A DNA stretch of 27,440 nt from a virus. The notes beneath the pieces were generated by a model. It was given only the letters and a program-made list of their open reading frames with translations, did no database searches and was not told the DNA's origin. Below, piece after piece: positions 3,538 to 26,930 of the stretch. The stretch lies in the IMG/VR virus record IMGVR_UViG_3300043673_000047, positions 1 through 27,440 of that record. One strand, 5' to 3'. Numbering within the stretch: the stretch's first letter is position 1; each line of letters starts with the position of its first letter. A program made the position numbers and the translations under genes.

Positions 3538-3545
3538 TGTTTGCC

Positions 3546-3793: not shown

Positions 3794-4534
3794 GTGAAAG
3801 CGAGAAAGAAAACGCCGCCCGCCGCGCCGGCGAAACCGAAGCGCAAACGCCCGCTCAAATCCCCGTTGCGAAATAAGCAGCGCGCCTTTCTCGCCGCGAT
3901 CGCTATCACTGGCAGTATCAAGCAATCGGCCGAAGACGCGAAGATCGGCAGGACCTCGCACTATAAGTGGATGGACTGCGATCCCGCCTACCCTGCCCGG
4001 TTCGCCAAAGCGATGGCGCAGGGCGATGACGCTTATGAAGACGAGGTTTCGCTTCGCGCGTACAAGGGCGTCTTCGAACCGCTGGTTTTTCAGGGCGAGT
4101 TTTCGTACGAAAAGATTCCGTGCCTGGATCCCGAGACTGGTTTGCAACTCACCACGACTGACCCGATCACGGGGCGGACGATTCTCAGGTTTGACCAGGG
4201 CGAGATTCTCGGCGTCTGGAAGAAATCGGATGCTCTGCTGATGTTCCGCCAGCGAGGCCGGTTCCCGGACCGCTACGGAAGCAACAAGGTCCAGCTCACC
4301 GGCAAGAATGGCGCCGCGCTCATCCCAACCGAAATCCGAGTGACGTTTGTCGATCCAGTCAGCACAATCCCGGATAGTGGAACCGCAGTTTCCGCGCAAG
4401 GCGCAATGCTTGTTCCGCCCGTCGCGCTACAAAATTCTGCACGGCGGACGCGGATCGGCGAAGTCCTGGAGCGTCGCCCGCGCGCTGCTGATCGAGGGCA
4501 CAAAGAGGCCCGAACGCATTCCGTGCTTTCGTGA
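3794..4534 (+). CDS. Terminase small subunit candidate
   Basis: The product is 246 residues from GTG 3794. A very basic Pro/Lys N-terminus (residues 1-30) is followed by a helix-turn-helix-like region, LRNKQRAFLAAIAITGSIKQ...GRTSHYKWM (about 32-65), as in small terminases that recognise packaging sites. The remainder (ILGVWKKSDALLMFRQRGRFPDRYG, residues about 138-162) is also typical of these proteins. The role is DNA recognition and recruitment of the large subunit. The last ~60 residues overlap the large-subunit gene in another frame, and the end (ARRTRIGEVLERRPRAADRG) looks like out-of-frame translation, so the stop may have moved. No good Shine-Dalgarno precedes the GTG. Confidence 0.75.
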   Translation: MKARKKTPPAAPAKPKRKRPLKSPLRNKQRAFLAAIAITGSIKQSAEDAKIGRTSHYKWMDCDPAYPARFAKAMAQGDDAYEDEVSLRAYKGVFEPLVFQGEFSYEKIPCLDPETGLQLTTTDPITGRTILRFDQGEILGVWKKSDALLMFRQRGRFPDRYGSNKVQLTGKNGAALIPTEIRVTFVDPVSTIPDSGTAVSAQGAMLVPPVALQNSARRTRIGEVLERRPRAADRGHKEARTHSVLS

Positions 4535-5309
4535 GTTTCAGAACTCGCTCGCGGATAGCGTCCATCGGCTGCTCGAAGATCAAGTGGCAGAGCTAAACCT
4601 GTCAGGTTTCTACGACGTTCAGGAATCGAAGATCGTCGGCTTGAATGGCACGGAATTCATCTTTGCCGGACTCCGCCACAATATTGCATCCATCAAAAGC
4701 TTCGAGGGTTCCACGAAGGCGTGGATCGAAGAAGGGCAGACCGCTTCGAAGCGCTCGCTCGACGTCCTGATCCCGACGATTTTCCGGACGCCTGGTGCCG
4801 AGCTCTGGATCACCATGAATCCGGATCTTGCGGAGGATGAAGCGTACCAGCGCTTTATCGTCGATCCGCCGTCAGGGGCAATTGTCGAGCAGATGAACTG
4901 GATCGACAATCCCTGGTTTCCGGAAGGCCTTCTCGCTGAGAAGGACTTCATGAAGGCGCGCGATCTTGACACCTACAACAATATCTGGGGAGGTCAGTGC
5001 CGCTCCCGCGTGACAGGCGCTCTCTGGACGAAAGAGATTTTCAATACGCAGCGCGAAGCGGCGCCGGAGAGCGAAGCGGAACGCGAGGTGCTGCTGGCCA
5101 CACTCGCGCGAGTCGTCATCGCCATCGATCCTTCGGGATGTTCCGGCGAAGAGGACAAGCGCTCCACAAGATTGGGATCGTCGCGGCTGGCCTCGGGCAC
5201 GACGGCAACGGCAGAGTCCTCGAGGACGCCTCCGGACGCTATTCGCCGGATGAGTGGGCGAACAAGGCTCTGGGGTTATTTGACCGCTGGAAGGCGGACA
5301 AGATCGTAG
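4347..5309 (+). CDS. Terminase large subunit, N-terminal ATPase part (frameshifted gene)
   Basis: The frame opens after a TGA at 4341. Possible starts are TTG 4347 and GTG 4377 (VEPQFPRKAQ). Walker A is YKILHGGRGSAKSWSVARAL, and the Walker B-like region is SFEGSTKAWIEEGQT. ITMNPDLAEDEAYQRFI and WFPEGLLAEKDFMKARD follow as in HK97/P22-type large terminases. The homologous reading ends in VVIAIDPSGCSGEEDKRS at about 5165. Beyond this, the frame to 5309 is Arg/Ser/Thr-rich shadow sequence, while the nuclease domain continues one frame back. The protein would pump DNA into proheads using ATP. As read here, the gene yields an ATPase without a nuclease. Confidence 0.85.
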   Translation: MSIQSAQSRIVEPQFPRKAQCLFRPSRYKILHGGRGSAKSWSVARALLIEGTKRPERIPCFREFQNSLADSVHRLLEDQVAELNLSGFYDVQESKIVGLNGTEFIFAGLRHNIASIKSFEGSTKAWIEEGQTASKRSLDVLIPTIFRTPGAELWITMNPDLAEDEAYQRFIVDPPSGAIVEQMNWIDNPWFPEGLLAEKDFMKARDLDTYNNIWGGQCRSRVTGALWTKEIFNTQREAAPESEAEREVLLATLARVVIAIDPSGCSGEEDKRSTRLGSSRLASGTTATAESSRTPPDAIRRMSGRTRLWGYLTAGRRTRS

Positions 5310-5656
5310 CCGAGAAAAACTTCGGCGGGGCGATGGTGGAATCGACCATTCGCACAGCGCGCAGGTCGGCGCCCGTCAAGCTTGTGAACGCCTCGCGCGG
5401 GAAGGTCCAGCGCGCAGAACCGGTAGCTGCAATTTATTCGCAGGGTAAGGTGCGCCATGTCGGCCACTTCCCCGAACTTGAACGGCAATACTGCCTGTTC
5501 TCAACCGGCGGCTACGTCGGTGCGAAGTCCCCGGATCATGCGGATGCTGCGATCTGGGCGCTTACAGAGTTGATGCTGGATCCGGAACCGCAGCCGAACA
5601 TTCGCTTTCCGGATATCGGCAGGGAAAGAAACTGGCGCCCGACCAGCAGCTATTAA
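4997..5656 (+). CDS. Terminase large subunit, C-terminal nuclease part (frameshifted gene)
   Basis: Meaningful sequence in this frame begins at about 5165 (HKIGIVAAGLGHDGNG). It continues with VLEDASGRYSPDEWANKAL, DKIVAEKNFGGAMV, LVNASRGKVQRAEPVAA and SPDHADAAIWALTELM, which is the RNase H-like nuclease domain of large terminases with its acidic residues. Residues translated before 5165 are shadow of the ATPase frame. Inserting one base between TCC (5163-5165) and AC (5166) would join the halves as ...EEDKRS-x-KIGIV..., the sequence expected for the family (D-x-R-S-D-x-I-G-I-V). So this is one gene, 4347/4377-5656, carrying a one-base deletion or a sequencing error. Confidence 0.85.
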   Translation: MPLPRDRRSLDERDFQYAARSGAGERSGTRGAAGHTRASRHRHRSFGMFRRRGQALHKIGIVAAGLGHDGNGRVLEDASGRYSPDEWANKALGLFDRWKADKIVAEKNFGGAMVESTIRTARRSAPVKLVNASRGKVQRAEPVAAIYSQGKVRHVGHFPELERQYCLFSTGGYVGAKSPDHADAAIWALTELMLDPEPQPNIRFPDIGRERNWRPTSSY

Positions 5657-5673
5657 AAGACACCTGATCCGAA

Positions 5674-7020
5674 ATGAATATCTTCTCCAGAGCCGCTGGC
5701 TGGCTCGCGACCAAAGCGAACCCGGTGAACCGCAGTCTCATCGTCATGGGGCTGAACGGTCCCTTGTTTACCTCGGCCAACTACGCCGCAATGGCGAACG
5801 AAGGTTATGTCCTCAACGCTGACGTGTACGCATGCGTGAAGGAAATCACCACCGCGGCCAAGGGCATCAAATGGAAGCTATACCAGGGATCGGGACCGAA
5901 TCGCAAGCCACTCGAGGATCACCCGCTGCTCGATCTGATGCGGCGACCGAACGAAAAAATGGGCTGGGGCGCGTACTTCGAGCAATATATCGGCTTCCTC
6001 CAAATCGCAGGCAACAGCTACGTTGTCCGCAATGGCCCGACAAACGCGCCACCCACTGAACTCTTCCCGCTCCGCCCGGATCGCATGAAGATCGACAAGG
6101 GCACTATAAACGAGCCGATCGGCAGCTATATCTATAACGCCGGCGGCGTGGAAACGAAGCTGATGCCGGATCGTTTCGGCCAGACCGTCCTGCATACGAA
6201 GTTCTTTCACCCCACCGACGACTGGTATGGGCTCTCGCCGCTGCAGGCAGCATGCCGCAACGTCGACCAGTCAAACGAAATACAGAAGTGGAATGTTGCG
6301 CTGATGCAGAACGCGGGCCGCCCGTCGGGCGCGCTCGTCACCGATCGCGAGTTGAGCGCAGAGCAGTTCGGCCGGCTGGAAGGCTCGCTGCACGAGAAGT
6401 TCATCGGAACGCAGAACGCAGGGCTGCCGATGGTCCTCGAAGGCGGCGTGACATGGGAAAAGATGTCGCTGACGCCGGCGGAGCTCGACTGGCTGGGGGG
6501 CGACAATCGCACCACGCGCAAGATTTGCAGCGCGTTCGGCTGCCCTCCGGAGCTCGTGGGTATCCACGAAGGCGGCGGCCTGAATGACTCGAACTACATT
6601 CAGGCGCGTAAGCAGTTCTATCTTGAGACGATCCTGCCGCTGATGGACTTCGTCGCGGACGACTACAACAACTGGCTTACGCCGCTGTTCGGCGACGATC
6701 TCACCCTCGACTACGATCGCGACGACATCGAGGCGATTCAGGAAGACCGCGACATCATCTATACGCGGAATAACAACGCGGTCAAGAGCTCGTGGCTCAC
6801 GATCAACGAAGCGCGGCTGAAAGCCGGCTATCCGGCCATTCCGGGCGGAGACGTATTCCTGCTGCCTTCGATGGTGCAGATGGTCGGTATAGACGGAAAG
6901 GTCGTTGTCGCGCCAGCGCCAAAAGCGATCCAGGCGCCAGAGCCGGTACCGGCGAAGAAAGATCAGCCGCTCGACCTTCTGATCAAGAGCACGGACCGCG
7001 TTCGCGCGCTGCTGAATTAG
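5674..7020 (+). CDS. Portal protein (HK97-type)
   Basis: The 448-residue protein has the usual portal order. These are YVLNADVYACVKEITTAAKGIKWKLY near residue 50, a DHPLLDLMRRPN motif near 80, YFEQYIGFLQIAGNSYV, ELFPLRPDRMKID, ILHT-type HTKFFHPTDDWYGLSPL, then a WNVALMQNAGRPSGAL segment and GCPPELVGIHEGGGLNDSNYIQARKQFY. The portal forms the dodecameric vertex channel for DNA entry and the docking site for terminase and connector. It starts 17 bases after the terminase stop. The C-terminus is extended and Pro/Lys-rich. Confidence 0.93.
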   Translation: MNIFSRAAGWLATKANPVNRSLIVMGLNGPLFTSANYAAMANEGYVLNADVYACVKEITTAAKGIKWKLYQGSGPNRKPLEDHPLLDLMRRPNEKMGWGAYFEQYIGFLQIAGNSYVVRNGPTNAPPTELFPLRPDRMKIDKGTINEPIGSYIYNAGGVETKLMPDRFGQTVLHTKFFHPTDDWYGLSPLQAACRNVDQSNEIQKWNVALMQNAGRPSGALVTDRELSAEQFGRLEGSLHEKFIGTQNAGLPMVLEGGVTWEKMSLTPAELDWLGGDNRTTRKICSAFGCPPELVGIHEGGGLNDSNYIQARKQFYLETILPLMDFVADDYNNWLTPLFGDDLTLDYDRDDIEAIQEDRDIIYTRNNNAVKSSWLTINEARLKAGYPAIPGGDVFLLPSMVQMVGIDGKVVVAPAPKAIQAPEPVPAKKDQPLDLLIKSTDRVRALLN

Positions 7021-7046
7021 GCGCGCCGCGAAAAGGAACTACTCAT

Positions 7047-8114
7047 TTGGAATACAAGAACGCTACACAACTCGAAATCAAAAGCGTCGACGACGGCACT
7101 GGCACCTTCACGGGCTACCTGGCTGTCTTCGGCGACGTCGATTCCGATAAGGACACCATTGTAAAGGGCGCGTTCAAAGTCTCGCTCGCTTCGAAGCGCC
7201 TGATTCCGATCCTCTGGCAGCATGTCATCGTAGAACCGATAGGCGTCTGGACTGAACTGAAGGAAGACGATCACGGCCTTCTTGTTACCGGCAGGCTGGC
7301 GATCGATACCGACGCCGGCGCGCGCGCTTATTCACTCCTGAAGATGCTGATGGAGTCGGCGAAACAGTTCGACGCTCGCGGTGTGTTTGCGCTGTCGATC
7401 GGGTACAAGGCAGTTCAGTTCGATCGCATCAAGGGCGTTCGCCACCTCAAAGAAATCAAATTGTTCGAAGGCTCCTTCGTGACCTTCTCGTCGAACAGTG
7501 AATCCAACGTGACTTCGGTCAAAGGCATAAAAGCTATGAACACATTCAAAGAGACGCTGGCGGCGCACGAACTGCGCAAGGATCTGTCCAATCAGCGATG
7601 GACCGTTGAGGACGCCAAAGACGACTCGATGGATTCGATCATGTGCGATCCGGGCATGGACAAAGAGGCGAAGAAAAAGGCTGCGCGCAAGACACTCCAC
7701 GATGCCGCCGACGCCCACGCCGATATCACAGACCAGAAGATTGATGCGCTTCCGGAAGTAGACGAAGCAGCCGATCTGAAGGCAGCCGACACCGACACGC
7801 TCGAAGTGAAGGCCGCGAAAAAGAGCCTCGCCGGCGTGATCTCCATGCACGTGGAAGCGGCGCGCAAGTGCGACCAGGCTATGTACAAGATGCACCAGGG
7901 CCAGGCATTGGCAACGAAAGCCATCGCCGCCGCGCGGATGATGGACTACGCCGCAATCAACGTGGGTGGCGATAAAACGCCGCCGCAGCCGATGGGCGGC
8001 AAGTCGGCGGCCGATCTGGCTGCCGAGGTTAAGGCCGCAGCGGACAAGGTCGAGCACGACGCGTTCATCGAGTCGCTCAAAACAGCACGAGCCAAGCTCC
8101 TGCCTAATGCATAA
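7047..8114 (+). CDS. Prohead maturation protease with long C-terminal extension
   Basis: I chose TTG 7047 because AAGGA lies about 10 bases upstream and the family sequence starts here (LEYKNATQLEIKSVDDGTG). An earlier in-frame GTG at 6792 would overlap the portal gene. The S78/U35 protease motifs are TGYLAVFGDVDSDKD, LIPILWQHVIVEPIGVW (His about 59), FALSIGYKA (Ser about 117) and LFEGSFVTFSSN. The enzyme cleaves the scaffold part of the capsid protein. Residues about 164-355 form a second, highly helical Lys/Glu/Ala-rich region not found in the ~200-residue HK97 protease. It begins at an internal ATG (7536) preceded by AAAGG, a possible separate start for a scaffold-like product. Confidence 0.9.
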   Translation: MEYKNATQLEIKSVDDGTGTFTGYLAVFGDVDSDKDTIVKGAFKVSLASKRLIPILWQHVIVEPIGVWTELKEDDHGLLVTGRLAIDTDAGARAYSLLKMLMESAKQFDARGVFALSIGYKAVQFDRIKGVRHLKEIKLFEGSFVTFSSNSESNVTSVKGIKAMNTFKETLAAHELRKDLSNQRWTVEDAKDDSMDSIMCDPGMDKEAKKKAARKTLHDAADAHADITDQKIDALPEVDEAADLKAADTDTLEVKAAKKSLAGVISMHVEAARKCDQAMYKMHQGQALATKAIAAARMMDYAAINVGGDKTPPQPMGGKSAADLAAEVKAAADKVEHDAFIESLKTARAKLLPNA

Positions 8115-8332
8115 CGCTATTCATTAGCTATTCACTTCCGCGGCCCGGCTCAGGCCAGCCGCCTCGCTCAGCGTTTGATCAACGCCCGAGTCTCACCGCC
8201 ACGTTTTACCCGCGACCCGGATTTGTCCAGTCGCTTCTCGGCACGCTCCACGCTCAGGCGCGCGAGCGGTTCAGCTCAGTAGTTCCCTACCCGAGCGGCA
8301 ACACAAAATCCAAATCAAGGGAGAGCTCCGCA
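8115..8332. other. Intergenic region before capsid gene
   Basis: This 218-base GC-rich gap is long for this operon. I find no plausible reading frame or convincing promoter in it. A weak hairpin (CGCTC at 8251-8255 with GAGCG at 8264-8268) and several GCTCAG repeats are present. A strong AAGGGAGAG Shine-Dalgarno sits at the right end before the capsid ATG. Confidence 0.4.
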
Positions 8333-9586
8333 ATGGAACTCAACGCAGAAATTAAGGTCCTCATCACACAGATGGGCACCGATTTTGAAGCATTCAAAAT
8401 CGCACACGCAGCTGAAGTAAAAGCCGGCCGCACCGACAGTGAAGGCAAGATTGCCGCGATGACGGAAGCCATCACTAAGCAGCACGAGCAGCTGGCCGCG
8501 ATCGAAACGAAACAGAACCGTGTCGTCCTCGCTGGCGATGCGACCGAAGCCGCGCTCGAAGTGAAGGCGCACAAACAGTTCAACGCGCAGTTGTCCGGCC
8601 TGTCCGGCGGCCGCCGCGTGCTGACCGCGGACGAGTTCAAATCGTTCACGGGCGAGTTCGGCGGCTACCTCCGCCACGACACCACCCGCATGGATCAAAT
8701 CCAGGTGAAGGCGCTTTCGCTCGGATCCGATCCGGACGGCGGTTACTTCCTTACGCCTCCGCAGGTCGCCAACCGCATCACCACGCGCGTGTTCGAAACC
8801 ACGCCGATGCGTGACCTCGCAACCGTGCAGCCCATCAGCTCGCACGAATTCAAGATCCCGCAGGATCCGAACTCCGCCATCAGCGGTGGGTGGACCGGCG
8901 AGCTCTCGACGAGGCCCGCGACCGCAACGTCGCAGATCGCCATGAAGACGATCACCGCATATGAGCAGTTCGCGATGCCGGTTGTTTCTCAGCAATTGCT
9001 CGAGGACTCCGCTGTCGACATCGAAAGCTGGTATGCCGACAAGACTGCCGACATCATCGCGCGGACCGAAAACACCGCGTTCGTGACCGGAACTGGCGCC
9101 GCGCAGCCAAAGGGCTTCATGTCCTATGCGTCCGGCACCAACTGGGGCCAGATCCAGCAGGTTGGCACCGGCACCTCCGGAGCCTTCACCTATGCCGGTC
9201 TGCTAAACCTGATCACCTCCCTGAAGGAGCAGTATCAGGCCAACGCAAGCTGGCTCGTGAAACGCGCTTCGGTTGCCAGCATCATGCTGATCCAGGACGG
9301 CAACGGTCGTTATATCTTCCAGCCCATCGTGGGCGGGAACTTCAATAACACCAGCCTGCTCGGCTACAACCTGAAGTATGCAAACGACATGCCGGCGGTT
9401 GGCGCCGGCGCGCTTGCTGCTGCTTTCGGCGATTTCAAACGCGGTTACGTGATCGTCGACCGGGTCGGCATCAGCGTTCTGCGTGATGCTTTCACATCGA
9501 AGCCGAACATCCTGTTCTACACGCGGAAGCGGACGGGCGGGGACGTGGACGACTTCGACGCAATCAAGATCCAGGTCCTGACCTAG
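8333..9586 (+). CDS. Major capsid protein (HK97 fold)
   Basis: The 417-residue protein has an N-terminal helical, coiled-coil-like segment (residues 1 to about 110), matching the delta/scaffold domain of HK97 gp5 that the protease removes. The capsid fold follows: GGYFLTPPQVANRITTRVFETTPMRDLATVQPIS, then WTGELSTRPATATSQIAMKTI, then an AMPVVSQQLLEDSAVDIESWYADKTADIIARTENTAFVTG segment and PKGFMSY. It ends with FGDFKRGYVIVDRVGISVLRDAF and KPNILFYTRKRTGGDVDDFDAIKIQVLT. It builds the icosahedral shell. The start is supported by AAGGGAGAG nine bases upstream. The exact cleavage site cannot be told from sequence alone. Confidence 0.96.
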   Translation: MELNAEIKVLITQMGTDFEAFKIAHAAEVKAGRTDSEGKIAAMTEAITKQHEQLAAIETKQNRVVLAGDATEAALEVKAHKQFNAQLSGLSGGRRVLTADEFKSFTGEFGGYLRHDTTRMDQIQVKALSLGSDPDGGYFLTPPQVANRITTRVFETTPMRDLATVQPISSHEFKIPQDPNSAISGGWTGELSTRPATATSQIAMKTITAYEQFAMPVVSQQLLEDSAVDIESWYADKTADIIARTENTAFVTGTGAAQPKGFMSYASGTNWGQIQQVGTGTSGAFTYAGLLNLITSLKEQYQANASWLVKRASVASIMLIQDGNGRYIFQPIVGGNFNNTSLLGYNLKYANDMPAVGAGALAAAFGDFKRGYVIVDRVGISVLRDAFTSKPNILFYTRKRTGGDVDDFDAIKIQVLT

Positions 9587-12555: not shown

Positions 12556-13092
12556 GTGTTCGACAAACTTGTAGACTTGCTCGTCCAGTTTATCGAGCTT
12601 TTTCAGTTCTGGCAGGTTGTCCCGGCATACGCGCAGGCAGTAGTTTTGCGCCTCGGGAAGTTCCACCGGTTGACGGATCCGGGCTTTCATTGGAAGTGGC
12701 CATTCTGCATCGAGATCTCGCACCAGGTCAACGTGGTACCCTCCACGATGGCAGTTGGGCCGCAATCCCTGACCACAAGGGATGGCACAAGCATTGTCAT
12801 CGCCACGGTCGTGACGTACCGAATCTCTGACGTCAAGACTTACTTCCTCGAAATTGAGGGAGCGAGTCAGGTGATAGAAGACGCCACCTATGGTCTGGTC
12901 GCTCAGTTCATCATGGGCCGCACGTGGGATGAGCTTCGCGGCGACACGGATATGGATAACGATTTAAGCATCAAGGTTCGCCGCGCCGCGAAGAAGTACG
13001 GCGTGGAAATCCTCACCGTGCAAATAGCGGACTTCACGCGCAGCCGGTCTTACCGCCTGATGGCGCCGATGCACGAGCACCACGCGCAATAA
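12556..13092 (+). CDS. SPFH / band-7 (stomatin-prohibitin-like) protein
   Basis: The 178-residue protein starts at GTG 12556, with AGGAG six to ten bases upstream. A hydrophobic, amphipathic N-terminus (LVDLLVQFIELFQFWQVV) leads into the SPFH core: YAQAVVLRLGKFHRLTDPGFHW, VNVVPSTMAVGPQSLTTRDG, then IVIATVVTYRISDVKTYFLEI and a VQIADFTRSRSYRLM end. The C-terminal coiled coil found in most stomatins is absent. The family scaffolds membrane microdomains and often controls proteases. A member among virion genes is unusual. It may be a moron, or a membrane-facing factor for assembly or lysis; the function is unknown. Confidence 0.8.
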   Translation: MFDKLVDLLVQFIELFQFWQVVPAYAQAVVLRLGKFHRLTDPGFHWKWPFCIEISHQVNVVPSTMAVGPQSLTTRDGTSIVIATVVTYRISDVKTYFLEIEGASQVIEDATYGLVAQFIMGRTWDELRGDTDMDNDLSIKVRRAAKKYGVEILTVQIADFTRSRSYRLMAPMHEHHAQ

Positions 13093-14839: not shown

Positions 14840-15187
14840 TTAGGCTGCCTGCACCACGGCGGCAAGCAGGCCTGCCCGATATTCATGATGCGCCGCTCGC
14901 ACGGCCTTTGTCCGCGCGAGAAACTCCGCGGGCGCATTCGTGGCCGCCGCGGGCACGCTCGCGTGAATGGTCGCGGACGGCCATTTCGCCAGCTCGGCAT
15001 CCGTCTCAGCTCCGGGCGGAAAGATTTCGTCCCACAGCTCCTCGGGAAGTAAAAGCGCCGGCGGCGACGCCGCGATCAGCGCGTTCGCGTCTTCCGGTTC
15101 CATTTCGACGATCTGGCCATAGCGCGAAAGCGCGATGTTGCCCGGCAGGATCGTTTCCGACCCGAAAAATCTGTATTTGCTCAACAT
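14840..15187 (-). CDS. Minus-strand hypothetical protein (115 aa)
   Basis: The leftward gene starts at ATG 15187. The N-terminal half reads like a real conserved phage protein (LSKYRFFGSETILPGNIALS, RYGQIVEMEPEDANALIA, LLPEELWDEIFPPG); the second half is Ala-rich and helical (TNAPAEFLARTKAVRAAHHE). The N-terminal half resembles small proteins of unknown function from tail gene clusters. The gene lies opposite to its neighbours, between the tail terminator candidate and the tail tube. The rightward frames across it are Arg/Ser-rich shadows. Function unknown; possible moron. Confidence 0.7.
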   Translation of the reverse strand: MLSKYRFFGSETILPGNIALSRYGQIVEMEPEDANALIAASPPALLLPEELWDEIFPPGAETDAELAKWPSATIHASVPAAATNAPAEFLARTKAVRAAHHEYRAGLLAAVVQAA

Positions 15188-17314: not shown

Positions 17315-17716
17315 TTACGCTGCTCCCGTTCCTGCTGCGCGCGAGGCTTCAGGATGAAGTGAGCTTTGAAGAGCCGCGGCGACCGCGTCCGGATTGCGGT
17401 CGATCACGGTCAGGTATGCGCGGACCGCGCCCTCCGGCTCCGACTTATGCTGCTCCCATTGCTGCAGCGTGCGCGGATTCAGAGCGAACGTGCCAGCGAA
17501 TTTCGCCTGGGACATCCCGATTCGCTCTCGGATCGCTTTTACGTCGACCGCTCCCGGCAAGAAGTAGCTCTCAAGCTGGATTTCGCCGCGGACATGGGCG
17601 AGGACCTCCGTCATCCCTTTAACAAGCGCTCGGCCCAGGCGGGTACTATTCGGTTTTGCTTTTCGCGTTGCGCTCGATTTCTGCTGCGAGTTTTTTAAGG
17701 CTGTTTTTTTCGGCAT
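17315..17716 (-). CDS. HigA-type antitoxin (XRE helix-turn-helix)
   Basis: The leftward 133-residue protein starts at ATG 17716. A Lys/Ser/Thr-rich N-terminus (residues 1-28) precedes LGRALVKGMTEVLAHVRGE, then the helix-turn-helix VDVKAIRERIGMSQAKFAGT, LNPRTLQQWEQHKSEPEGAV and RAYLTVIDRNPDAVAAAL. This is the pattern of antitoxins paired with RelE/HigB-like toxins. It binds the toxin and probably the palindrome at 17993-18011. The start overlaps the end of the toxin gene by 71 bases; a later Met (17614) would remove the overlap but also the conserved ALVKG segment. The C-terminus is Ala/Gly-rich. Confidence 0.85.
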   Translation of the reverse strand: MPKKTALKNSQQKSSATRKAKPNSTRLGRALVKGMTEVLAHVRGEIQLESYFLPGAVDVKAIRERIGMSQAKFAGTFALNPRTLQQWEQHKSEPEGAVRAYLTVIDRNPDAVAAALQSSLHPEASRAAGTGAA

Positions 17717-17984
17717 TGCTCAGATTCTCCTTTTCGTTCTTTGGATAGGCGTCAATCATGTACACGGTTTCGCCGCTCACGAAGTAATAGAAGATCGACC
17801 GGATGCCCGCGCTCTTGCCGCGATTCCCGCGCGCCCGGCGGGCTTTGCGGCATCCGCCAGTTTCGCCCATAACCGGATAGGCGGCGGGATCGGCAGCAAT
17901 CGCGGCTTCCATCGCCATTCGCTCTTCGGACGAAAGCAGTCTTTTTACCTGCTTTTGATATGCCGCAAGAGCGATGATCTTCAT
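17646..17984 (-). CDS. RelE/HigB-type toxin
   Basis: The 112-residue protein starts at ATG 17984 (KIIALAAYQKQVKRLLSSEE). It carries the family block MGETGGCRKARRARGNRGKS, then AGIRSIFYYFVSGETVYMID and YPKNEKENLSNAEKNSLKKL. These match RelE/HigB-2-like ribosome-dependent mRNA interferases. An extension to 18026 would read through the promoter and operator, so I reject it. It precedes the antitoxin, as in HigBA systems. The predicted transcription start is at its ATG. The module lies between GT and the tape measure, genes normally adjacent, so it is a likely moron. Confidence 0.88.
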   Translation of the reverse strand: MKIIALAAYQKQVKRLLSSEERMAMEAAIAADPAAYPVMGETGGCRKARRARGNRGKSAGIRSIFYYFVSGETVYMIDAYPKNEKENLSNAEKNSLKKLAAEIERNAKSKTE

Positions 17985-17990
17985 GACCTT

Positions 17991-18019
17991 AGTATACGTT
18001 AACAACGTATAAAACGCAA
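17991..18019 (-). promoter_or_regulatory. Promoter and operator of the HigBA-like module
   Basis: On the minus strand, a -35 TTGCGT (18019-18014), a 17-base spacer and a -10 TATACT (17996-17991) precede the toxin ATG by six bases. A perfect inverted repeat with 8-base arms TATACGTT/AACGTATA and a 3-base centre (17993-18011) covers the spacer and part of the -10. This is the same design as at hicA. The operator also lies 39 bases before the tape-measure ATG. Confidence 0.72.
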
Positions 18020-18049
18020 GCCTCACAGGGTATTATATTTCGGATTTTA

Positions 18050-21000
18050 ATGGCATACGACATCAGATTCGATGTAAAACAAACCGGCGCGGACACCATC
18101 GACCAGATCTCGTCGAAGATGGCCGTGATGCAGAAGCAGGTCGCGAACGTGGCGACTGAGATGAAGCACACGGCGCAGGCCGTCATTGACGCTCAAACGG
18201 CGATGGATACGGCCATTGCCAGTGGCAACGCGGCCGGGGCAGCTTCCCTCGCGGCCGTTGTAGCAGAGAAGCGGGCGAGCCTCGAAACGCTCGTGGCGAA
18301 GCATCGGGAACTGAAGGCGAGCGTTGACGAAGTCACGTCGTCGTTTACGCGGCAAATGCCGGCGGTTCAGGCGTTAAACGCTGAATTTTCGATGATGGAG
18401 GGAAGACTCCCTACGCGGGCGCTCGGGAGTCTGGCTAGTAGCATAGGAGGCCTTGGCCCTCTCATGCAGGGCTTGTTTCCTATTTTCGCCGCGGGAATGT
18501 TTGTCGACCTTCTCGGTCAGATGATCGGCAAGGTGGGCGAACTTTACAATAAGTGGGATCCGGTAGTCAAAGCGGAAACGCTCGCTCTTGAGCAGATGAA
18601 AAAGCTCAACGCCGAGTACGACAAGCTGTCGAACGAAGATCGCCGTCTCAGGCTGGACAAAATCGAGCGCGACTCGGGAAAAGCCGAACGCTATCGCGCG
18701 GAGTCGAAATTTGCAGGCGCAGATCTCGCCAGTGATTCAGATGCGGTAGACATACTGCTTGGGAAGATCGCGAAGCAAAACGCCATCATCAAAGCGGGAA
18801 CCAGCAATCGGGGTAACTGGGATTCCAAAGGGAAACCGATCGATGACCTCAGTGAAACCGCGCTTGCTGCCGTTAGGACCAGAGACGATGCTCTTGGGCC
18901 TCAGCTGGAGGTTGCTCGCCTTCGGGTAAAGACTGACACCGACCGACAAGCTGACCTCGATTCAAAAGTCACAGTCGCACAGAACGAAGAAGACAAGAAG
19001 GCTGACGCCGCAGCCAAAGCCGCCGCGCGCCCCGGCATTGAAGCCGCAAAACGAAACAGGGCATTTACCGAGGAATCCGTCGTGCGGGCGGCCGACACGC
19101 TGGCGAAAAGCGAAGACGATCCTTACGCGGCAGTGCACACCGAAGTCCAGGAGCGCCTCAACAAGGCCGCGGCATCCGGCATCACTGTGTCTCCGGAAGC
19201 GATGGCTGCGGCCACGCGCGAGACGATTGCGCGGAATACCGAGATCAGCAAGAACCTGATTAAGCGCGCCCAAACAGAAGGCGCGAAATTCCCCGAAGAA
19301 TTAAAGAAACTTGTCAAAGAAGGCGCAGGCAAAGCTGTCATCAATCCTGAAGGCACGATCGTAGATGGCGTCGATCTAAGCGGGGACCTTGGAGTCTCGC
19401 GGGATAACGATGCCACGGCAAAACAGACCGAAACCGACTTTCTATATGGCCAGCGGAAGAAAACCTCCGGCGGGGAGAAAGACGTCTCTGCGGCTCGGGC
19501 TATCGAAAAGAGCGATGCGGAATCGGACGAATACACTGTAACGAAGAGCCTGCAGGAGACTATCCGCGGGAACAGCCTTGCCACGCGCAGCGGCGGGATG
19601 AGCGGATCCCAGGCGGCCGGCTCGGACTACGCGGCGCGGGTCGACGCGAGTAACCAAATCCTCGAAATCGAAAAGAACCGCATTGGCATCATTGCCGACG
19701 CGGACCTCCGCGACAAGGAGATGGAGGTCGCGAAGAAACAGAACGCCGAGTCGCTTTATGAAGCGCAGATTCAGTATGAGGAAGCGCTCGACGAGCTACG
19801 CGAGAAAAACCTCGAGAAATACCAGAAAGACGCCACCAGCATTTTCGACGCGTTAACGGACCGCCAGGTCGGCGCCGGCCGTGCGCTCGGGATGCTGCTC
19901 AAGAAAGATGCGCTGAGCGAAGGCGGAACGCTGTTCGGCAACGTGATGGGGCCGGTATTGCAAAGCGCGGGCCAGGGCGTTGCGGGCGGAGTTCCGGGCA
20001 GCTGGGGGAAGACTCTCAAGGGGACGATGCTCGATCCCTCGAATAAGGCGATTCCGGATGCCGCACAGACATCGATTGTTGCAAACACCTCGGATACCGT
20101 AAGCTGGCTCAAGCAAATCTATAAGGCGGTCTCGGGCGACACGTCCGCGAGCGATCCGACTTCCGCGGATCCCGCCTCCGCGATATCGATGGCGGCATCG
20201 AATCCGTTAACGAATCCGCTGGCGGCTATGTCGGCGATGGCGACGAGTTCCCTGCCCGCGGCACTGAGCACCGGACCACTGGCCACGATCCAGAAAGCCC
20301 TCGGCCTCGCCGGCGGCGGCATCGGATCCGCGCTCAGCGGAAACGGGCTATCGACGTTGCTCGGTTACGGCACCCCGGGCGTAAACGGCCAGCCAGGCAC
20401 CGCTCCAACAACAGGTCAGCAGATCGGCGCTGGCGTTGGCCTTGCGGCCACGCTCGGCGCTGGCACGCTCGGAATTCTCGCGGGCATTCATGCGGGTGGT
20501 GCCGGCGGCGCGCTCACAGCGGCCGGCAGCGGCATCGGCATGGCCGCCGCTGTGACGACGAACGTTGTCAAGGCACTCGGTACGGTGATGACCCCACTCC
20601 TGAGTGCGATACCGATCGTCGGATCAATAGCTGCCATCGCGCTGCCGCTGATCGGCAGCCTGTTCGGCAACGGTCCCGTCCAGCGCGCGAACCAGATCAA
20701 TCAGGAACTCTCAGCCAACCAGTACATCGCTCCGCAGGCGCTGAACGTCACGCAGTCCTCGAACGGCAACTTCACCGACTTTAACGCACGCGGCCAGATC
20801 CGCACGTCCGATTTTTCCGCTGTGCCGACGGTCCGGCAAGGCTCGGTCTGGGAACAGACGCACGGCCTGTTCGGGCCGCCGCCGACGTATTACGACGTGC
20901 CCGGCACGCAGACCGGGCAGTTCAACCCGGCCACCGCGGCTAAACCCACGACCGTGATCAACGTGAACGCGATGGACGTGGCGTCCTTTGCGGACTTCGC

Positions 21001-21100
21001 GGATCGGAATCACATCGCTATCGGCAACGCCGCGGCGAAGAATTTGCAGAACGTGCACGGCTCGCTTGCGACGGAAGTGCACCGGACGGCGAACGGATAA
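18050..21100 (+). CDS. Tape measure protein
   Basis: The 1016-residue product starts AYDIRFDVKQTGADTIDQIS, like many tape measures, with long Ala/Glu/Lys-rich coiled-coil stretches (about 1-110 and 300-640). Hydrophobic segments lie near residues 127-160 (LASSIGGLGPLMQGLFPIFA, MFVDLLGQMIG) and 790-875 (Gly/Ala-rich, with PIVGSIAAIALPLIGSLFG). The C-terminal ~130 residues are polar and Asn/Thr-rich. At about 0.15 nm per residue, a tail near 150 nm would be expected. It sets tail length and helps DNA cross the envelope. The start lacks a strong Shine-Dalgarno (GGA only). Confidence 0.88.
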   Translation: MAYDIRFDVKQTGADTIDQISSKMAVMQKQVANVATEMKHTAQAVIDAQTAMDTAIASGNAAGAASLAAVVAEKRASLETLVAKHRELKASVDEVTSSFTRQMPAVQALNAEFSMMEGRLPTRALGSLASSIGGLGPLMQGLFPIFAAGMFVDLLGQMIGKVGELYNKWDPVVKAETLALEQMKKLNAEYDKLSNEDRRLRLDKIERDSGKAERYRAESKFAGADLASDSDAVDILLGKIAKQNAIIKAGTSNRGNWDSKGKPIDDLSETALAAVRTRDDALGPQLEVARLRVKTDTDRQADLDSKVTVAQNEEDKKADAAAKAAARPGIEAAKRNRAFTEESVVRAADTLAKSEDDPYAAVHTEVQERLNKAAASGITVSPEAMAAATRETIARNTEISKNLIKRAQTEGAKFPEELKKLVKEGAGKAVINPEGTIVDGVDLSGDLGVSRDNDATAKQTETDFLYGQRKKTSGGEKDVSAARAIEKSDAESDEYTVTKSLQETIRGNSLATRSGGMSGSQAAGSDYAARVDASNQILEIEKNRIGIIADADLRDKEMEVAKKQNAESLYEAQIQYEEALDELREKNLEKYQKDATSIFDALTDRQVGAGRALGMLLKKDALSEGGTLFGNVMGPVLQSAGQGVAGGVPGSWGKTLKGTMLDPSNKAIPDAAQTSIVANTSDTVSWLKQIYKAVSGDTSASDPTSADPASAISMAASNPLTNPLAAMSAMATSSLPAALSTGPLATIQKALGLAGGGIGSALSGNGLSTLLGYGTPGVNGQPGTAPTTGQQIGAGVGLAATLGAGTLGILAGIHAGGAGGALTAAGSGIGMAAAVTTNVVKALGTVMTPLLSAIPIVGSIAAIALPLIGSLFGNGPVQRANQINQELSANQYIAPQALNVTQSSNGNFTDFNARGQIRTSDFSAVPTVRQGSVWEQTHGLFGPPPTYYDVPGTQTGQFNPATAAKPTTVINVNAMDVASFADFADRNHIAIGNAAAKNLQNVHGSLATEVHRTANG

Positions 21101-21103
21101 CCG

Positions 21104-21883
21104 ATGTCGTCAACTCCGCTTCCAGTCATCCGCGGGACGTCCGCAGCGAACTATCCGTTTGAGGTTACCTACAGCTTTTTAACCGGAATCGGCCAGTTCC
21201 AGAACGGCGCGCAGCAGCGGTGGCTCCGGCAGCCGGGTGCCCTGATCAAAGTGGCGATTCCTTACGCGCAGCTGACGCAGGCGCAAAAGAATACCGTCAA
21301 AGGCGCGGTCGCCGGCGCCGCTGGTCGGTTCGAGCAAAATCTCGAAATCAGCCTGCCTTTCGGCGGATCGCTCGCGACATTCTTCAATCTCGGCATCGAT
21401 GCCGATGAATGGGCCGCGACCGAATCGAAAACGACGCAGTACAACGGCCCGCTGCGGCTCACGCAATCGATCACACAAAGCCTTTCGTCGGGCTTGTTTC
21501 CCGGCGGCGCGTTTCCCACGCTGGCGAACGGCGCGATCGGCATCCTGCCATACGTGCAAAAGCGGCGTTACCAGACGATCGCCCAGAAGGTGGAGGCGGG
21601 GCCGATTTACACTTTCGCGGAGTTCGGCGGCGGATTGAGCGGCTATCCCGGCGCCGGTGGCTTGAACGGCTGGGAATTCAACGCTTCGATGGTCTCGGAC
21701 GCGGACACGGCGACGCTGGTCGCGCACTTCCTCGCGAACTGGGGGATGGCGTTTTCGTTCACGTTCACGGATGAGGACGCGGTGCCTTACACGAAGACGC
21801 ATTACGCAATGGATGATCTGGTGGTTACTTATCGCGGGGTAAACGATTCGAGCCTGAAGATTGTGCTCGAAGCGACGAATTAA
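21104..21883 (+). CDS. Distal tail / minor tail protein
   Basis: The 259-residue protein starts four bases after the tape measure stop. It reads TPLPVIRGTSAANYPFEVTY, then FQNGAQQRWLRQPGALIKVA (W-R-x-P-x-AL motif), then VSDADTATLVAHFLANWGMA and ends MDDLVVTYRGVNDSSLKIVL-EATN. This resembles phage tail proteins found directly after the tape measure, which form the distal ring joining tube and tip. The final LKIVLEATN pattern is common in that group. Its 3' end overlaps the convergent gene at 21825-22088 by 59 bases. The exact family is not certain. Confidence 0.72.
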   Translation: MSSTPLPVIRGTSAANYPFEVTYSFLTGIGQFQNGAQQRWLRQPGALIKVAIPYAQLTQAQKNTVKGAVAGAAGRFEQNLEISLPFGGSLATFFNLGIDADEWAATESKTTQYNGPLRLTQSITQSLSSGLFPGGAFPTLANGAIGILPYVQKRRYQTIAQKVEAGPIYTFAEFGGGLSGYPGAGGLNGWEFNASMVSDADTATLVAHFLANWGMAFSFTFTDEDAVPYTKTHYAMDDLVVTYRGVNDSSLKIVLEATN

Positions 21884-22088
21884 GAACGGCCCCTTTCCCA
21901 GAGATCCGGACATACGAAACGCACCGGTTGTAGTAGCTGAACCCGCGAACCTCACCATTCGTATAAGTGCGGGCGTTCGGCTGCGCGGGCATGATGTCGC
22001 CCACCGGTATGAACCTGCCATCGGCCTTCGGCACCGCGGGCGCTATCGCCGCCGCGCCCGCCAGCGCGAGAAAATCGCGGCGGTTCAT
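21825..22088 (-). CDS. Small Tat-signal-like exported protein (87 aa)
   Basis: It starts at ATG 22088, overlapping the stop of the upstream gene (ATGA). The N-terminus MNRRDFLALAGAAAIAPAV has the twin-arginine R-R-x-F-L motif, a hydrophobic Ala core and a probable cleavage region. The mature part is short and polar (DGRFIPVGDIMPAQPNARTY, NGEVRGFSYYNRCVSYVRIS) with one Cys. Its first 13 bases are identical to the first 13 of the preceding gene. A longer reading from 22211 is rejected because it runs in another frame through the upstream gene. The last ~20 codons overlap the distal tail gene antisense. Function unknown; third gene of a leftward operon. Confidence 0.65.
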   Translation of the reverse strand: MNRRDFLALAGAAAIAPAVPKADGRFIPVGDIMPAQPNARTYTNGEVRGFSYYNRCVSYVRISGKGAVLNSSLRAQSSGSNRLPRDK

Positions 22089-22489
22089 TGCGGGAACTCG
22101 ACCTCGGCAAGAACCACCAGTATCATCGGTGACCGCCCGAAACCGGCCAGCTCGGTCGGGACGCAGAATCTCACTCCCGTCCCAATGACTCCCCAGCTCA
22201 ATGGGCTCCACGACAGAATCTGGTCGGGCCCGGCGCGCGGAACGTCAACCCCGTTCACCGCAAGATTCAGAACCTTGGCCTCACCGCAACAAACAGAGGC
22301 CCGGCCGTAAACGAAATCGGGAGTGCTGACGGCATCACGGACCTGGCAGGCGAGTATGCGTCGCGTCAACTGCTGCGCGATAGGCGCAAGCTTCGCGACT
22401 TCCGGCGCCGCCGCGGTCAACGCCTGGGCCAGGGCGGGCGCAGCGATCGCTGCGGCTGCTGTCGTCATCAGGAAATTGCGGCGGTTCAT
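22085..22489 (-). CDS. Exported protein resembling a domain of the tail-tip protein (134 aa)
   Basis: The N-terminus MNRRNFLMTTAAAAIAAPAL-AQ is a Tat-like signal (RRNFL) with likely cleavage near ALA-Q. The mature part matches residues about 360-453 of the tip protein encoded at 22680-26930. VLNLAVNGVDVP aligns with VLTVLVNGVEVP, CVPTELAGFGRSP with TVPSELAASGSIP, and both segments finish in FPQ, where the small protein ends. A Cys-rich segment (VCCGEAK) aligns near CVVCMAPN. I see this by eye; it implies shared ancestry. A possible function is a periplasmic decoy or partner of the tip, for instance in superinfection exclusion. The start overlaps the upstream gene (ATGA). Confidence 0.72.
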   Translation of the reverse strand: MNRRNFLMTTAAAAIAAPALAQALTAAAPEVAKLAPIAQQLTRRILACQVRDAVSTPDFVYGRASVCCGEAKVLNLAVNGVDVPRAGPDQILSWSPLSWGVIGTGVRFCVPTELAGFGRSPMILVVLAEVEFPQ

Positions 22490-22665
22490 TGGAGCCTCGG
22501 GCTCGCAGGCTCCAAGTCGTGAAAGCGGAGCGCGCGCAAAAGCCTCACATAGCCCTCTTTGTACTCAGCCCAGATGGCCGGATCCGCCGGATCCTTGCCT
22601 GCCGATTTAATCGTTCGATAAATCAGACCGATTTCTGAGTGGTCAAGGAATCGTTCGCTTTCCAT
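22486..22665 (-). CDS. Small cytoplasmic protein (59 aa), first gene of leftward operon
   Basis: I read this gene by hand: ATG at 22665, TGA at 22488-22486, where it overlaps the next ATG (ATGA). The product starts MESERFLDHSEIGLIYRTIK, contains KDPADPAIWAEYKEGYVRLL and ends with a basic-to-Pro segment (LRFHDLEPASPRLQ). It is helical, with balanced charge and no signal peptide. It opens the leftward operon, with its ATG 14 bases from the ATG of the rightward tip gene (22680). The two genes therefore share a tiny divergent spacer. No family is recognised. Confidence 0.65.
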   Translation of the reverse strand: MESERFLDHSEIGLIYRTIKSAGKDPADPAIWAEYKEGYVRLLRALRFHDLEPASPRLQ

Positions 22666-22679
22666 AGTTCAACCATCGC

Positions 22680-25600
22680 ATGTCCTTCACCATCGAATCC
22701 GGAAAAGAAACCGGCCTCGTCCAGTCGAACGTCGTCCCGAAGCCACTGATTCTCTGCGCGCTCGCGGCGATCAACCCTGCGACGAAGCTGGTGGACTCTG
22801 GCAGCGACGTTACTTACCTGACCACCACGCCCGCGCTCGGCGGCAACACGCTGACGTACAAAGGCAACGTTTACGAAGCGCGTCTGCAGGGCAACCCGAT
22901 CGAGCAGATTCAGGCGCAGTCGCCGCAGGGCTACGACATCCCGGGTTCGATCTCGCTCGTGATCGCGGACGGCGATTTCGCGATCTGGACCACGCACGCG
23001 AACGCGTTCGGCTGGCGCGGCGGCACGCTGACCGTAATCTTTGCGCTCTGGGATATCCCGAGCAACTCTTACTCGACCAACGCATACACGTGGCCGTTCA
23101 TTCTCGACAAGCCGACCGTCGATTTCGGCGCCGGCATCATCAAGGTCACCGGGCAGGCGCGGCAGTCGATGACGCGGCTGACCATTCCGAATTTCGCACG
23201 CCAGAATCGCTGCGGTTATACGTTTGCGTCGACCGCGGCGCAACGGCGCGATGGCCTGACCAATCCGACATCCATATATTGCAGATATTCGCCGGATCTG
23301 ATCTCGATCGGTGGCGTCGGCAATACAACTACGGCGTACCTTACCAATCCGGACGGGTCGCAGCTGACTGACGGCTCCGGCTTCTATGTGATGTGCGATT
23401 ACACGCGATCGTGCGGCTCCGGGCGCGCCACGCGAACGCAGGGGTGCATGGCGCGTCTGGGCAACTATGCATCGACTACGACGTATGGCAGCGGCGGCAA
23501 ACCGTGTGGTCCGGACGGCGATATAGCCAACGATACCGGCAACCGCGCAACAGGCGACTTCACGGGCGATACCTGGGTCGCTCCGCAGGGCTGGTCCGGC
23601 AAGCAGTACGTCAACCCCAGCGCGGGCACGCAGTACGGCTTTAACGCGCCGAACCCCCCTACCGGAACGACCTATTACAACCAGGGCTATGGCACGCAGT
23701 GGGTCAACGCGACCGTACTGGAACCCTGGAGCGGAGCTAATGATCTGATCTCCGAATGTGTGGTCTGTATGGCACCCAACGGTCCGGCTACGGTCCTCAC
23801 GGTCCTCGTCAACGGCGTCGAAGTGCCGTTCAATAACGATCCGAAGTTGAATTTCACCTGGGTGTCTTTGCCGGTCGGAAGCACGTCATCGGGCGGCCGG
23901 GCAGGCATCGTGAGCCAGCTCATGAATGGGCACGGCGATCCGCACGGCTCAATGTGCTGGATCATCATCACCGTACCAAGCGAACTGGCAGCGTCCGGCT
24001 CTATCCCGACCGTGCAGGTTCTCGTGCAGTTTCCACAGTGCCTTCACGCCATGCCGATTGCGACATCGGCTGTATCCGGTGGCGTCGCGGTGCTTACCTT
24101 CCCTGCGGGTGATGTCAATATCGACTGCACGGGGAATTCGCCATTCACTGTCTATCTCAGTGGCAATAGCCTGATCGCCGATGGCGCGTATGGTCTGAGC
24201 AGTTGGACTTCCGGCACGGTCACGCTTGCGGGCACGTTCACAAACGGCACGGGCGCTGGCGGGGGCGTTTTTTATATTCCGCTCAACCCCTACGACCTCG
24301 CGATGCAGGAATCGTCGACGGGCGCGGTCGCGGCCAATCCGGTCTGGGCACTGATGGACCTGCTTTGTTGCTGGGGTCCGTTCACGACTCTCGATATCGA
24401 CGCCGCCAGCTGGTACGCCGCGGCGCAGATATGCGCGGTCCAGATCGGCTACACCGACATCAATAACAACGCGGCCACACACGCGCGCTTCCGCTGCTCG
24501 CTCGCGCTGATCACGAGCCAGCGGCAATCGCTCGCGAAAGCGGTCCTCGCCATTCGCAACTGCGCGTGCATTATTCTGGCGCGCAATCCGGTTAACGGCC
24601 TGCTTCAGTGCTTCATCGAGGGTACGCTCGCCGACCAGCAGGGCGCGCCGATTCCGGGCTCGAACTACTCGACGCCCGTGGCATCGATGCCTGCCACCAG
24701 CACATCGCTGGTGCCGTCGATGGGCACTCCGGGCTACCTCGCCTATCTCTTCGATGGCGGGTCTGCAACAGTACGGGCGTCCATCGAGAAGGGCACGTTC
24801 AAGCTCGGCGGCCGCACACTCAACGACACGCCGAATACAATCGCGTTTCCGTTTCAGGATGAGGCCAACCAGTTCGTGCAGGACACCATCACTACCATCG
24901 ACCCCGATGGTTACGTGACCTCTGGCAATCAGGAAATCCCCGCGCCTTTCGCCGTAATGGGAATCGATAATTTCGATCAGGGCACCCGCGTTTCGAATAT
25001 CGAGCTGGCCAAGGCGCTCTACGGCAATTCGCGCTTCGATGCCCGCGGCACCGAGTTGCCGTCTTTCAGGACGACGGTTAAGGCCGCGCATCTCGCCAGC
25101 CGCGTGGGCTTCATCTGCGGGATCAATTATGCGCAGGCCAGCCTGTCCATGATTCTCGCGCGCCTGCTCTCCGCCACGCCGAATACGGACGGCGAGCACT
25201 GGGACCTCGCGTTCCGCTGGCACTTCGATCAGTGGCACACCGACCTGTACGGTCAGGATCCCCCGCCCTATCAGCGGAATCCGCTTTCCGCGGCGCCAAA
25301 CCGGCTGCCATGGCCACTGAAGCCGGGCTACAGCCCGTATCCCTCGAACGACGCGCTTTATCCGGGCCTCGAAACGATCGGACTTTACACAACCAACGGG
25401 CAGATCACAGTCGCGTCGACTCCGGTCGTGAACGTGACGTCGGCGCTGACCTCAGCGCCGAGGGTTCCCTTGCAGGCCACGGTCGGCTCGGGCGGCGCGA
25501 TCGATGCGGGCAACTGGCTGGTGAGTTTCGTCGGCATCGACAGCGCCGGCGCGAAATCGCAGCCCTCCGCGAACGTGAAGGCGGTCGTGGCTTCGGCCGG

Positions 25601-26930
25601 ATCGACTATCACGGTTTCGAATATCGTCTGGGATTCGCACGCGGTCGATTACGAGGTATACCTCGGCCAGCACTCGCTGAATATGTGGCTGGTCGATCCG
25701 GCGCCCTCGCTCGTGCACAACCCGGTGGCCACCACGATCACGATAGGCGCGGAAATAATCTGGCCCACGGATGGGCCGGGGCGCCCCGACGTCGTCGACA
25801 CGAGCGTGATGCTTCTGGTCACGCCCATCCGGCATGGCGGCATCTGGGGCGACAGCTGTTCGGCGATCGCAGCGGGCGTCATCTCCATTCCTTCATCGCC
25901 CACTGTGAACCAGTGGGCAGGGCGCATTCTGTCGGCGTACGGTTCGGGCACGCCAATCCCCGTAGGAGGCATTGGGCCGCAGACCTTCGCGGGCCTCTGT
26001 TATGCGCGGCCGGGGAATTTCAATGTCACCGCGAACGACACGTCCGGCAATATGACGGTGACGCAGTCTACGTTCGGCGCGGCCGGCGATATTTACGTGA
26101 TGCGCGCGATGGCGAATATCTCGTCGGCCACCACGATCGGGGACTCGGCATTCGTGAATCAGTTCGCTCCGGGCGGCCTCGCCGTCAACGCGGAGTACGG
26201 AAAAGTCGTGTGGATCATGCGCGGCACGGGAGCGGGCCAGAAGCGCAATATCGCGTCGAACACATCGACGACGTTGACGATAACGCAGCCGTGGACTACG
26301 ATTCCGGACGGCACCAGCGTTTTCTCAATCCTCGAATCGGCGCCGTCGCTTTCGATTCCCGGCGCACCGTTCACGAATAACGGCATTGCGGGCGCCGCCG
26401 CCATTCTTGCGGCGATGCAGGTTCCGTTTTCGAGCGCGGGGTCGCAGTCGTTCCTCGTGCAGGCTGTCACCCAGGACGCGCAAGGCAATATCTCGCCCGT
26501 GCGGTTCGCGCCATGGCAGGAAGTCTTTGTGCCTGCGCTTACGAGCGCCGCGTTCGCGCCCGCCTCCTCCTACCTCGTGCCCGTTGTCGCTGGCGTGGCA
26601 ACGCCCGACGCGTCGCAAGCCGTGAACCTGCTGATCCTCACCGCCGCGAATTGCGTTGCGGACGGGAACGGCAATCCATGCATCGCCGTGGCTCCGCCGA
26701 TCAATTACTCGACTACCTCGGGCGTTGAAACGCCATGGCAGTTCATCACGCAGGAAGATCCCGTCGGCGGTACCGGCGGCTATTCCACCATTTTCGACCC
26801 CAGCTACAAGATCGCTTTCGCTGTCGCAAGCACCGCGTCGCCGGCCAACACCCAGTGCCACGTAGACTTCCGCACCAGCTCCGCGGGCGTGACCACGCCG
26901 ACCGGCGCATTGATCGACCAACCCATTTAA
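22680..26930 (+). CDS. Tail tip / central hub protein (gpL-like plus gpJ-like)
   Basis: The 1416-residue protein seems to fuse modules. About 1-175 is a beta-rich tail domain (QGYDIPGSISLVIADGDFAI). About 175-280 is Cys-rich (Cys 178, 201, 239, 245, 256, 276; CDYTRSCGSG, GCMARLGN), resembling lambda gpL, which binds an iron-sulfur cluster. About 280-455 is a Gly/Pro-rich insert ending in a domain shared with the exported protein at 22085-22489. About 540-900 is hub-like (NPVWALMDLLCCWGPFTTLD, FRCSLALITSQRQSLAKAVL), as in gpJ-type proteins. About 900-1060 includes fibronectin-like strands, and the C-terminus carries further beta domains. It would bind the receptor and open the tail. Some domain limits are approximate. 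Confidence 0.8.
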   Translation: MSFTIESGKETGLVQSNVVPKPLILCALAAINPATKLVDSGSDVTYLTTTPALGGNTLTYKGNVYEARLQGNPIEQIQAQSPQGYDIPGSISLVIADGDFAIWTTHANAFGWRGGTLTVIFALWDIPSNSYSTNAYTWPFILDKPTVDFGAGIIKVTGQARQSMTRLTIPNFARQNRCGYTFASTAAQRRDGLTNPTSIYCRYSPDLISIGGVGNTTTAYLTNPDGSQLTDGSGFYVMCDYTRSCGSGRATRTQGCMARLGNYASTTTYGSGGKPCGPDGDIANDTGNRATGDFTGDTWVAPQGWSGKQYVNPSAGTQYGFNAPNPPTGTTYYNQGYGTQWVNATVLEPWSGANDLISECVVCMAPNGPATVLTVLVNGVEVPFNNDPKLNFTWVSLPVGSTSSGGRAGIVSQLMNGHGDPHGSMCWIIITVPSELAASGSIPTVQVLVQFPQCLHAMPIATSAVSGGVAVLTFPAGDVNIDCTGNSPFTVYLSGNSLIADGAYGLSSWTSGTVTLAGTFTNGTGAGGGVFYIPLNPYDLAMQESSTGAVAANPVWALMDLLCCWGPFTTLDIDAASWYAAAQICAVQIGYTDINNNAATHARFRCSLALITSQRQSLAKAVLAIRNCACIILARNPVNGLLQCFIEGTLADQQGAPIPGSNYSTPVASMPATSTSLVPSMGTPGYLAYLFDGGSATVRASIEKGTFKLGGRTLNDTPNTIAFPFQDEANQFVQDTITTIDPDGYVTSGNQEIPAPFAVMGIDNFDQGTRVSNIELAKALYGNSRFDARGTELPSFRTTVKAAHLASRVGFICGINYAQASLSMILARLLSATPNTDGEHWDLAFRWHFDQWHTDLYGQDPPPYQRNPLSAAPNRLPWPLKPGYSPYPSNDALYPGLETIGLYTTNGQITVASTPVVNVTSALTSAPRVPLQATVGSGGAIDAGNWLVSFVGIDSAGAKSQPSANVKAVVASAGSTITVSNIVWDSHAVDYEVYLGQHSLNMWLVDPAPSLVHNPVATTITIGAEIIWPTDGPGRPDVVDTSVMLLVTPIRHGGIWGDSCSAIAAGVISIPSSPTVNQWAGRILSAYGSGTPIPVGGIGPQTFAGLCYARPGNFNVTANDTSGNMTVTQSTFGAAGDIYVMRAMANISSATTIGDSAFVNQFAPGGLAVNAEYGKVVWIMRGTGAGQKRNIASNTSTTLTITQPWTTIPDGTSVFSILESAPSLSIPGAPFTNNGIAGAAAILAAMQVPFSSAGSQSFLVQAVTQDAQGNISPVRFAPWQEVFVPALTSAAFAPASSYLVPVVAGVATPDASQAVNLLILTAANCVADGNGNPCIAVAPPINYSTTSGVETPWQFITQEDPVGGTGGYSTIFDPSYKIAFAVASTASPANTQCHVDFRTSSAGVTTPTGALIDQPI

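Follow-up and report, generated by a model that had tools for sequence, protein, structure and literature searches.

The phage exclusion proteins known so far mostly have host receptors or membranes as their targets. Phage T5 produces Llp, a small periplasmic lipoprotein which blocks superinfection through the receptor FhuA (PMC9586334), and P22 encodes the superinfection exclusion protein SieA, which is expressed from the prophage (PMC10883804). The Tai proteins are accessory proteins of prophages and satellites that are aimed at the tail and block its assembly (PMC11364771). Here we describe a leftward operon of three genes beside the tail-tip gene of a soil phage. Comparison of the sequences supports the view that its second gene specifies a protein that looks exported and copies a domain of the tail-tip hub of this same phage. 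In the part of the literature covered, no comparable exported tip copy was found, which is congruent with the statement in the initial annotation that no described system with such a layout is known.

The operon and its surroundings

The stretch of DNA analysed here (the window) is a virus record of 27,440 bases, the initial annotation of which was made from the sequence only. Its structural genes specify a terminase, portal, prohead protease, and capsid, followed by the tail genes. The tip family points to the Acidobacteriota as a possible host group, at about 30% identity. The only close relative found is a 67-kb contig (L003/G001), the tip protein of which is 85% identical to that of the window; searches with the tip, gene 1, the leader DNA, and the upstream tail gene always returned this same contig. 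No tyrosine integrase was found in the window record or in that of the relative, both of which are possibly incomplete. The relevant features are:

18050-21100: gene for a product of 1016 aa, among the tail genes
21104-21883, plus strand: tail gene immediately preceding the tip gene, weak match to DUF2460 (Pfam)
21825-22088, minus strand: gene 3, 87 aa, leader MNRRDFLALAGAAAIAPAV, TIGR01409 match over the cut-off
22025-22093, minus strand: junction-leader DNA unit, CCGCAATGAACCGCCGCGATTTTCTCGCGCTGGCG..., common to the relative, where it occurs twice
22085-22489, minus strand: gene 2, 134 aa, twin-arginine leader and diverged copy of a tail-tip hub domain
22088-22285, minus strand: tip-like part of gene 2, residues 69-134; the GDPxGSM loop found in the tips is missing
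22427-22489, minus strand: gene 2 leader, MNRRNFLMTTAAAAIAAPALA, with ALA as a possible cleavage site, 16.0 bits with TIGR01409
22486-22665, minus strand: gene 1, 59 aa, no leader, conserved in the relative (56% amino acid identity with L003:5798-5968)
22680-26930, plus strand: tail-tip hub protein, 1416 aa, T5 pb3/lambda gpJ type (Foldseek)
23781-24038, plus strand: part of the tip gene for residues 368-453, the source-type domain, a hub region resembling the HDII insertion

The gap of 796 nt between the tail gene at 21104-21883 and the tip gene is filled by three minus-strand genes, as had been described in the initial annotation; the coordinates and both joints, which are CAATGA overlaps (ATGA coupling), confirm this arrangement. 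Gene 3 starts with the ATG at 22088, the GTG at 22211 not being a likely start, and its C-terminal part is antisense to the tail gene ending at 21883. In codon score the own frame of each of the three genes ranks first of the six, though weakly. Purifying selection appears to act on gene 1, as judged by comparison with gene 1 of the relative (dN 0.39, dS 2.1; NG86). It could be assigned to no family of Pfam, PHROGs, NCBIfam, or PADLOC, and the only matches in Acidobacteriota, three weak ones (E about 0.01, 19-20 bits) that all lie in much longer frames, are unconvincing. The PADLOC models of known anti-phage defence systems matched none of the operon proteins, six in all from the two phages, and a search for an operon promoter gave no credible match.

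Elsewhere in the window a HicA/HicB-type toxin-antitoxin pair is found at 3103-3725 (minus strand; Pfam HicA_toxin, E = 4.8e-9; HicB_lk_antitox, E = 3.7e-7), and a RelE-type toxin (PF06296, E = 9.7e-10) with a weakly MqsA/HTH-like partner is found at 17318-18026 (minus strand), just before the gene for the 1016-residue tail protein. An open reading frame of 115 aa at 14843-15187 (minus strand) has a good codon score and no Pfam match; tblastn reveals 45% identity over 110 aa with the relative (L007). The structural region includes a gene for a SPFH/Band 7 domain protein (12556-13089, plus strand; Pfam E = 2.9e-22), which is unusual in a phage and has no match in the relative, and a Class 3 lipase gene is located at 1374-2108 (plus strand; E = 7.8e-25), the relative's version being 84% identical. 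The relationship between the two phages is mosaic: the window's genes for portal, protease, and capsid (4347-9583) have no match in the relative (L006-L009), and the tail genes from about 11590 on match it, most strongly from 15249. The relative's upstream tail gene (L003 4304-5281) contains an insertion of about 66 residues, which is absent from the window copy.

Gene 2 and the tail-tip hub

The tip protein was modeled over 880 residues using 58 aligned tips (mean pLDDT 58). Comparison of this model with the PDB using Foldseek revealed matches to the tail tips of T5 (7zhj; E = 3e-18) and lambda (E = 5.6e-10), and the protein is therefore a hub of the pb3/gpJ type. The stretch copied in gene 2 appears to be the HDII-insertion region of the hub, an assignment which is based upon its position in the model, flanked by the cysteine-rich part on one side and the later hub domains on the other, and upon the literature (PMC10721106), and not upon superposition. 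Residues 399-423 of the model, which include the GDPxG loop, are of low confidence (below pLDDT 50). Homologues of the tip domain are frequent in Acidobacteriota loci and IMG/VR contigs. Many Acidobacteriota MAG contigs and many IMG/VR contigs of about 14-20 kb (L015-L175) carry the same module of adjoining tail and tip genes, possibly a widespread prophage or tail-like element.

BLASTP aligns gene 2 with the tip at E = 3e-5, with 31% identity over 89 columns and a gap of more than 20 residues. The mature product has a Smith-Waterman score of 73 with its own tip (2000 shuffles, 36.8 +/- 5.0; Gumbel p 6e-5) and of 79 with the relative's tip (p 1.4e-5). The resemblance to tip residues 360-453 claimed in the initial annotation is thus significant by alignment and shuffling, with its start placed at residue 368. 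The shared terminal FPQ, which had also been pointed out, is present, but it is partly the junction CCGCAATGA, which is common to the relative's non-tip-derived genes that also end in PQ. With FPQ removed, the scores are 63 for the window's tip (p 8e-4) and 70 for the relative's (p 1.3e-4). Gene 2 scores best against the tip among the 151 open reading frames of the window, the next reaching 59. When it was compared with about 163 homologous tips, those of its own lineage scored 79 and 73, and the others at most 55 (median 34).

We consider it very improbable that a short beta-rich stretch came to resemble the tip by chance or by convergence. Such an explanation would draw upon the gapped alignment, the lack of a DNA-level match, the failure of a generic tip-domain HMM to detect the copy, and the partial junction origin of FPQ, whereas the p values against the two tips, which remain at about 1e-3 to 1e-4 without FPQ, the rank of gene 2 among the window's reading frames, and its specificity for own-lineage tips all argue against it. 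In a phylogenetic tree the copy groups next to the tips of the window and L003 (91/87) and outside the pair formed by these, but its own branch is very long. This points to a putative origin by duplication in the lineage before the two phages split, or by transfer from a close relative. A duplication of the tip fragment at the DNA level was considered and rejected, as there is no significant DNA similarity.

The product of gene 2 does not contain the hub domains HDI-HDIV; its 134 aa comprise part of one region only. The sequence GDPxG is invariant in 58/58 aligned tips, and the segment containing it is missing from the copy, which may not have kept a binding function without this loop. No close copies of gene 2 were found in IMG/VR, among GenBank phages, or in 396 Acidobacteriota genomes (the latter searched without a positive control), nor was a second copy of the tip domain found in non-tip reading frames of the fetched loci. 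The structure model of the copy has a mean pLDDT of 52 and no significant PDB match, and it leans towards the tip fold, having been built on an alignment that included tips. This low-confidence model provides no independent evidence of a fold common to the copy and the tip.

Leaders, junctions, and the operon of the relative

The products of genes 2 and 3 start with MNRR[ND]FL (MNRRNFL/MNRRDFL) followed by a moderately hydrophobic stretch, and the twin-arginine motif RRxFL is present in the n-region of both leaders. While this motif agrees with the earlier description of two MNRR-x-FL products with Tat-like signals, the model scores are marginal: with the NCBIfam Tat model TIGR01409 (cut-off 16.7) gene 3 gives 17.4 bits and gene 2 is just under at 16.0. 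In L003, gene 2 is over this cut-off and gene 3 just under it; with Pfam TAT_signal, gene 3 of the window scores 22.0 against a cut-off of 22.7. The maximum hydropathy over 12 aa is 1.9-2.2 across the leaders (1.87 for that of gene 2). Cleavage could occur between ALA and QA in gene 2 of the window and at AVA in gene 2 of L003; gene 3 of the window lacks a clear site. Inspection of the leaders revealed no lipobox cysteine. Taken together, the leaders suggest export to the envelope.

Were the leader not an export signal, the copy might affect tail assembly from within the cytoplasm, either inhibiting it or serving as a chaperone of the hub. The derivation of the copy from the hub fits this proposal, and interference with tail assembly is an established strategy (Tai, PMC11364771). 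It is nevertheless an improbable one, since MNRR[DN]FL and the hydrophobic stretch are common to four genes in two phages, whatever the cargo, and two of the leaders pass the NCBIfam Tat cut-off. The earlier suggestion that the copy helps the tip to fold likewise fits badly with an export leader.

In the relative, the gap at the same place contains gene 1 and then two MNRRDFL genes. The two exported-type cargoes are paralogous (50% identity over 36 aa), are not derived from the tip, and match nothing else in either phage; no other cargo derived from phage proteins was found. The leader DNA of window gene 3 is 97% identical over 64 nt to that of the relative's second gene, and the relative's third gene has the same leader minus 9 nt. 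Where the two phages have the junction CCGCAATGAACCGCC in common, their genes terminate in ...PQ. Since the leader is 97% identical against 81-82% for the flanking genes, and the cargo is different, we conclude that the conserved entity is a cassette of leader plus variable cargo, with the tip copy as one cargo. Gene 1, the place, and the leader are the stable elements, and the cargo changes.

A three-gene set in the same gap, with gene 1 and the leaders, is thus found beside the tip gene of one relative, and no tip copy is present there. The operon can therefore no longer be regarded, as it was initially, as one built around a tip mimic: the relative possesses it without a tip copy, and tip mimicry alone explains one cargo. 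The operon was seen in two phages only. The flanking tail genes adjoin in 159 Acidobacteriota-type loci (median gap -13 nt), and the five widest gaps among these, on inspection, represent late start codons or broken frames and contain no such genes.

Possible function and comparison with known systems

We tentatively interpret the locus, at somewhat less than an even chance, as an accessory, moron-like leftward operon consisting of the leaderless gene 1 and two Tat-leader proteins, which would be swappable, envelope-targeted, and putatively involved in the exclusion of incoming phages. As far as its general character is concerned, it is probably a swappable envelope-targeted accessory cassette. 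The location beside the tip among the tail genes, the opposite strand, the changing cargo, and the nearby minus-strand toxin-antitoxin cassettes fit such a cassette. Leader-cargo units would be exchanged by recombination at the repeated junction-leader DNA, and their products would pass through Tat to the periplasm or inner membrane. There they might disturb those steps of infection by related phages that take place in the envelope (superinfection exclusion), a putative function that we regard as possible though not likely.

An envelope function unrelated to exclusion, such as lysis timing or cell-surface modification, deserves serious consideration, while falling short of being probable; the tip fragment would then be captured cargo that is otherwise used, or outgoing debris. 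The relative's cargo is not tip-derived, the GDPxG loop, invariant among the tips, is gone from the copy, whose identity to the tip is only ~31% (against 85% between the two tips), and the C-terminus of gene 3 is antisense tail-gene sequence. Furthermore, control of lysis by a periplasmic phage protein is exemplified by T4 RI (PMC8385771). Arguing against this alternative are the reading frames, which are intact, overlap, and rank first of the six by codon score, and gene 1, which is apparently under purifying selection.

For the exclusion reading, the tip-derived cargo could imitate the HDII-insertion region of the hub, its action consisting, for instance, in binding of the plug or of the tape-measure end normally held there; since this region normally holds it, a periplasmic copy could bind that of an incoming phage. 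Exclusion by self-tip mimicry, in which a conserved Tat leader with recombined cargo delivers a copy of the phage's own hub that intercepts the plug or tape measure of a sibling in the periplasm, is in our judgement unlikely. The marginal Tat scores, the low confidence of the copy's model, and the occurrence of the operon in only two phages speak against our interpretation of the locus, as does the absence of the invariant loop from the copy. As no tyrosine integrase was detected in either record, a benefit to a lysogen is not supported; exclusion is also practised by lytic phages. Occupation of the receptor by the copy, as initially envisaged, is not favoured, the copied region being in the hub and not in a receptor-binding fibre. 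If true, a hub-fragment cassette with changing cargo behind a near-unchanged leader would offer a simple route to phage-specific exclusion, and a small soluble protein would make the role of the HDII-insertion region in genome entry testable.

By comparison with P22 SieA, the operon proteins show no sequence relation in family scans, and neither the window nor the relative's record revealed an integrase. Tai, by its description, acts inside the cell, whereas the operon products carry export leaders. The tip matches the pb3 (T5) and gpJ (lambda) hubs by fold, and gene 2 is homologous to part of that tip; unlike these hubs, its product is a single fragment, apparently exported by its leader, and without the invariant loop. 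T5 Llp resembles the operon products in that all are small envelope-placed phage proteins that may block relatives, putatively so in the present case. It differs in being a lipoprotein that acts on FhuA, whereas the leaders of the operon are of the twin-arginine type without a lipobox, and one of the cargoes comes from the hub.
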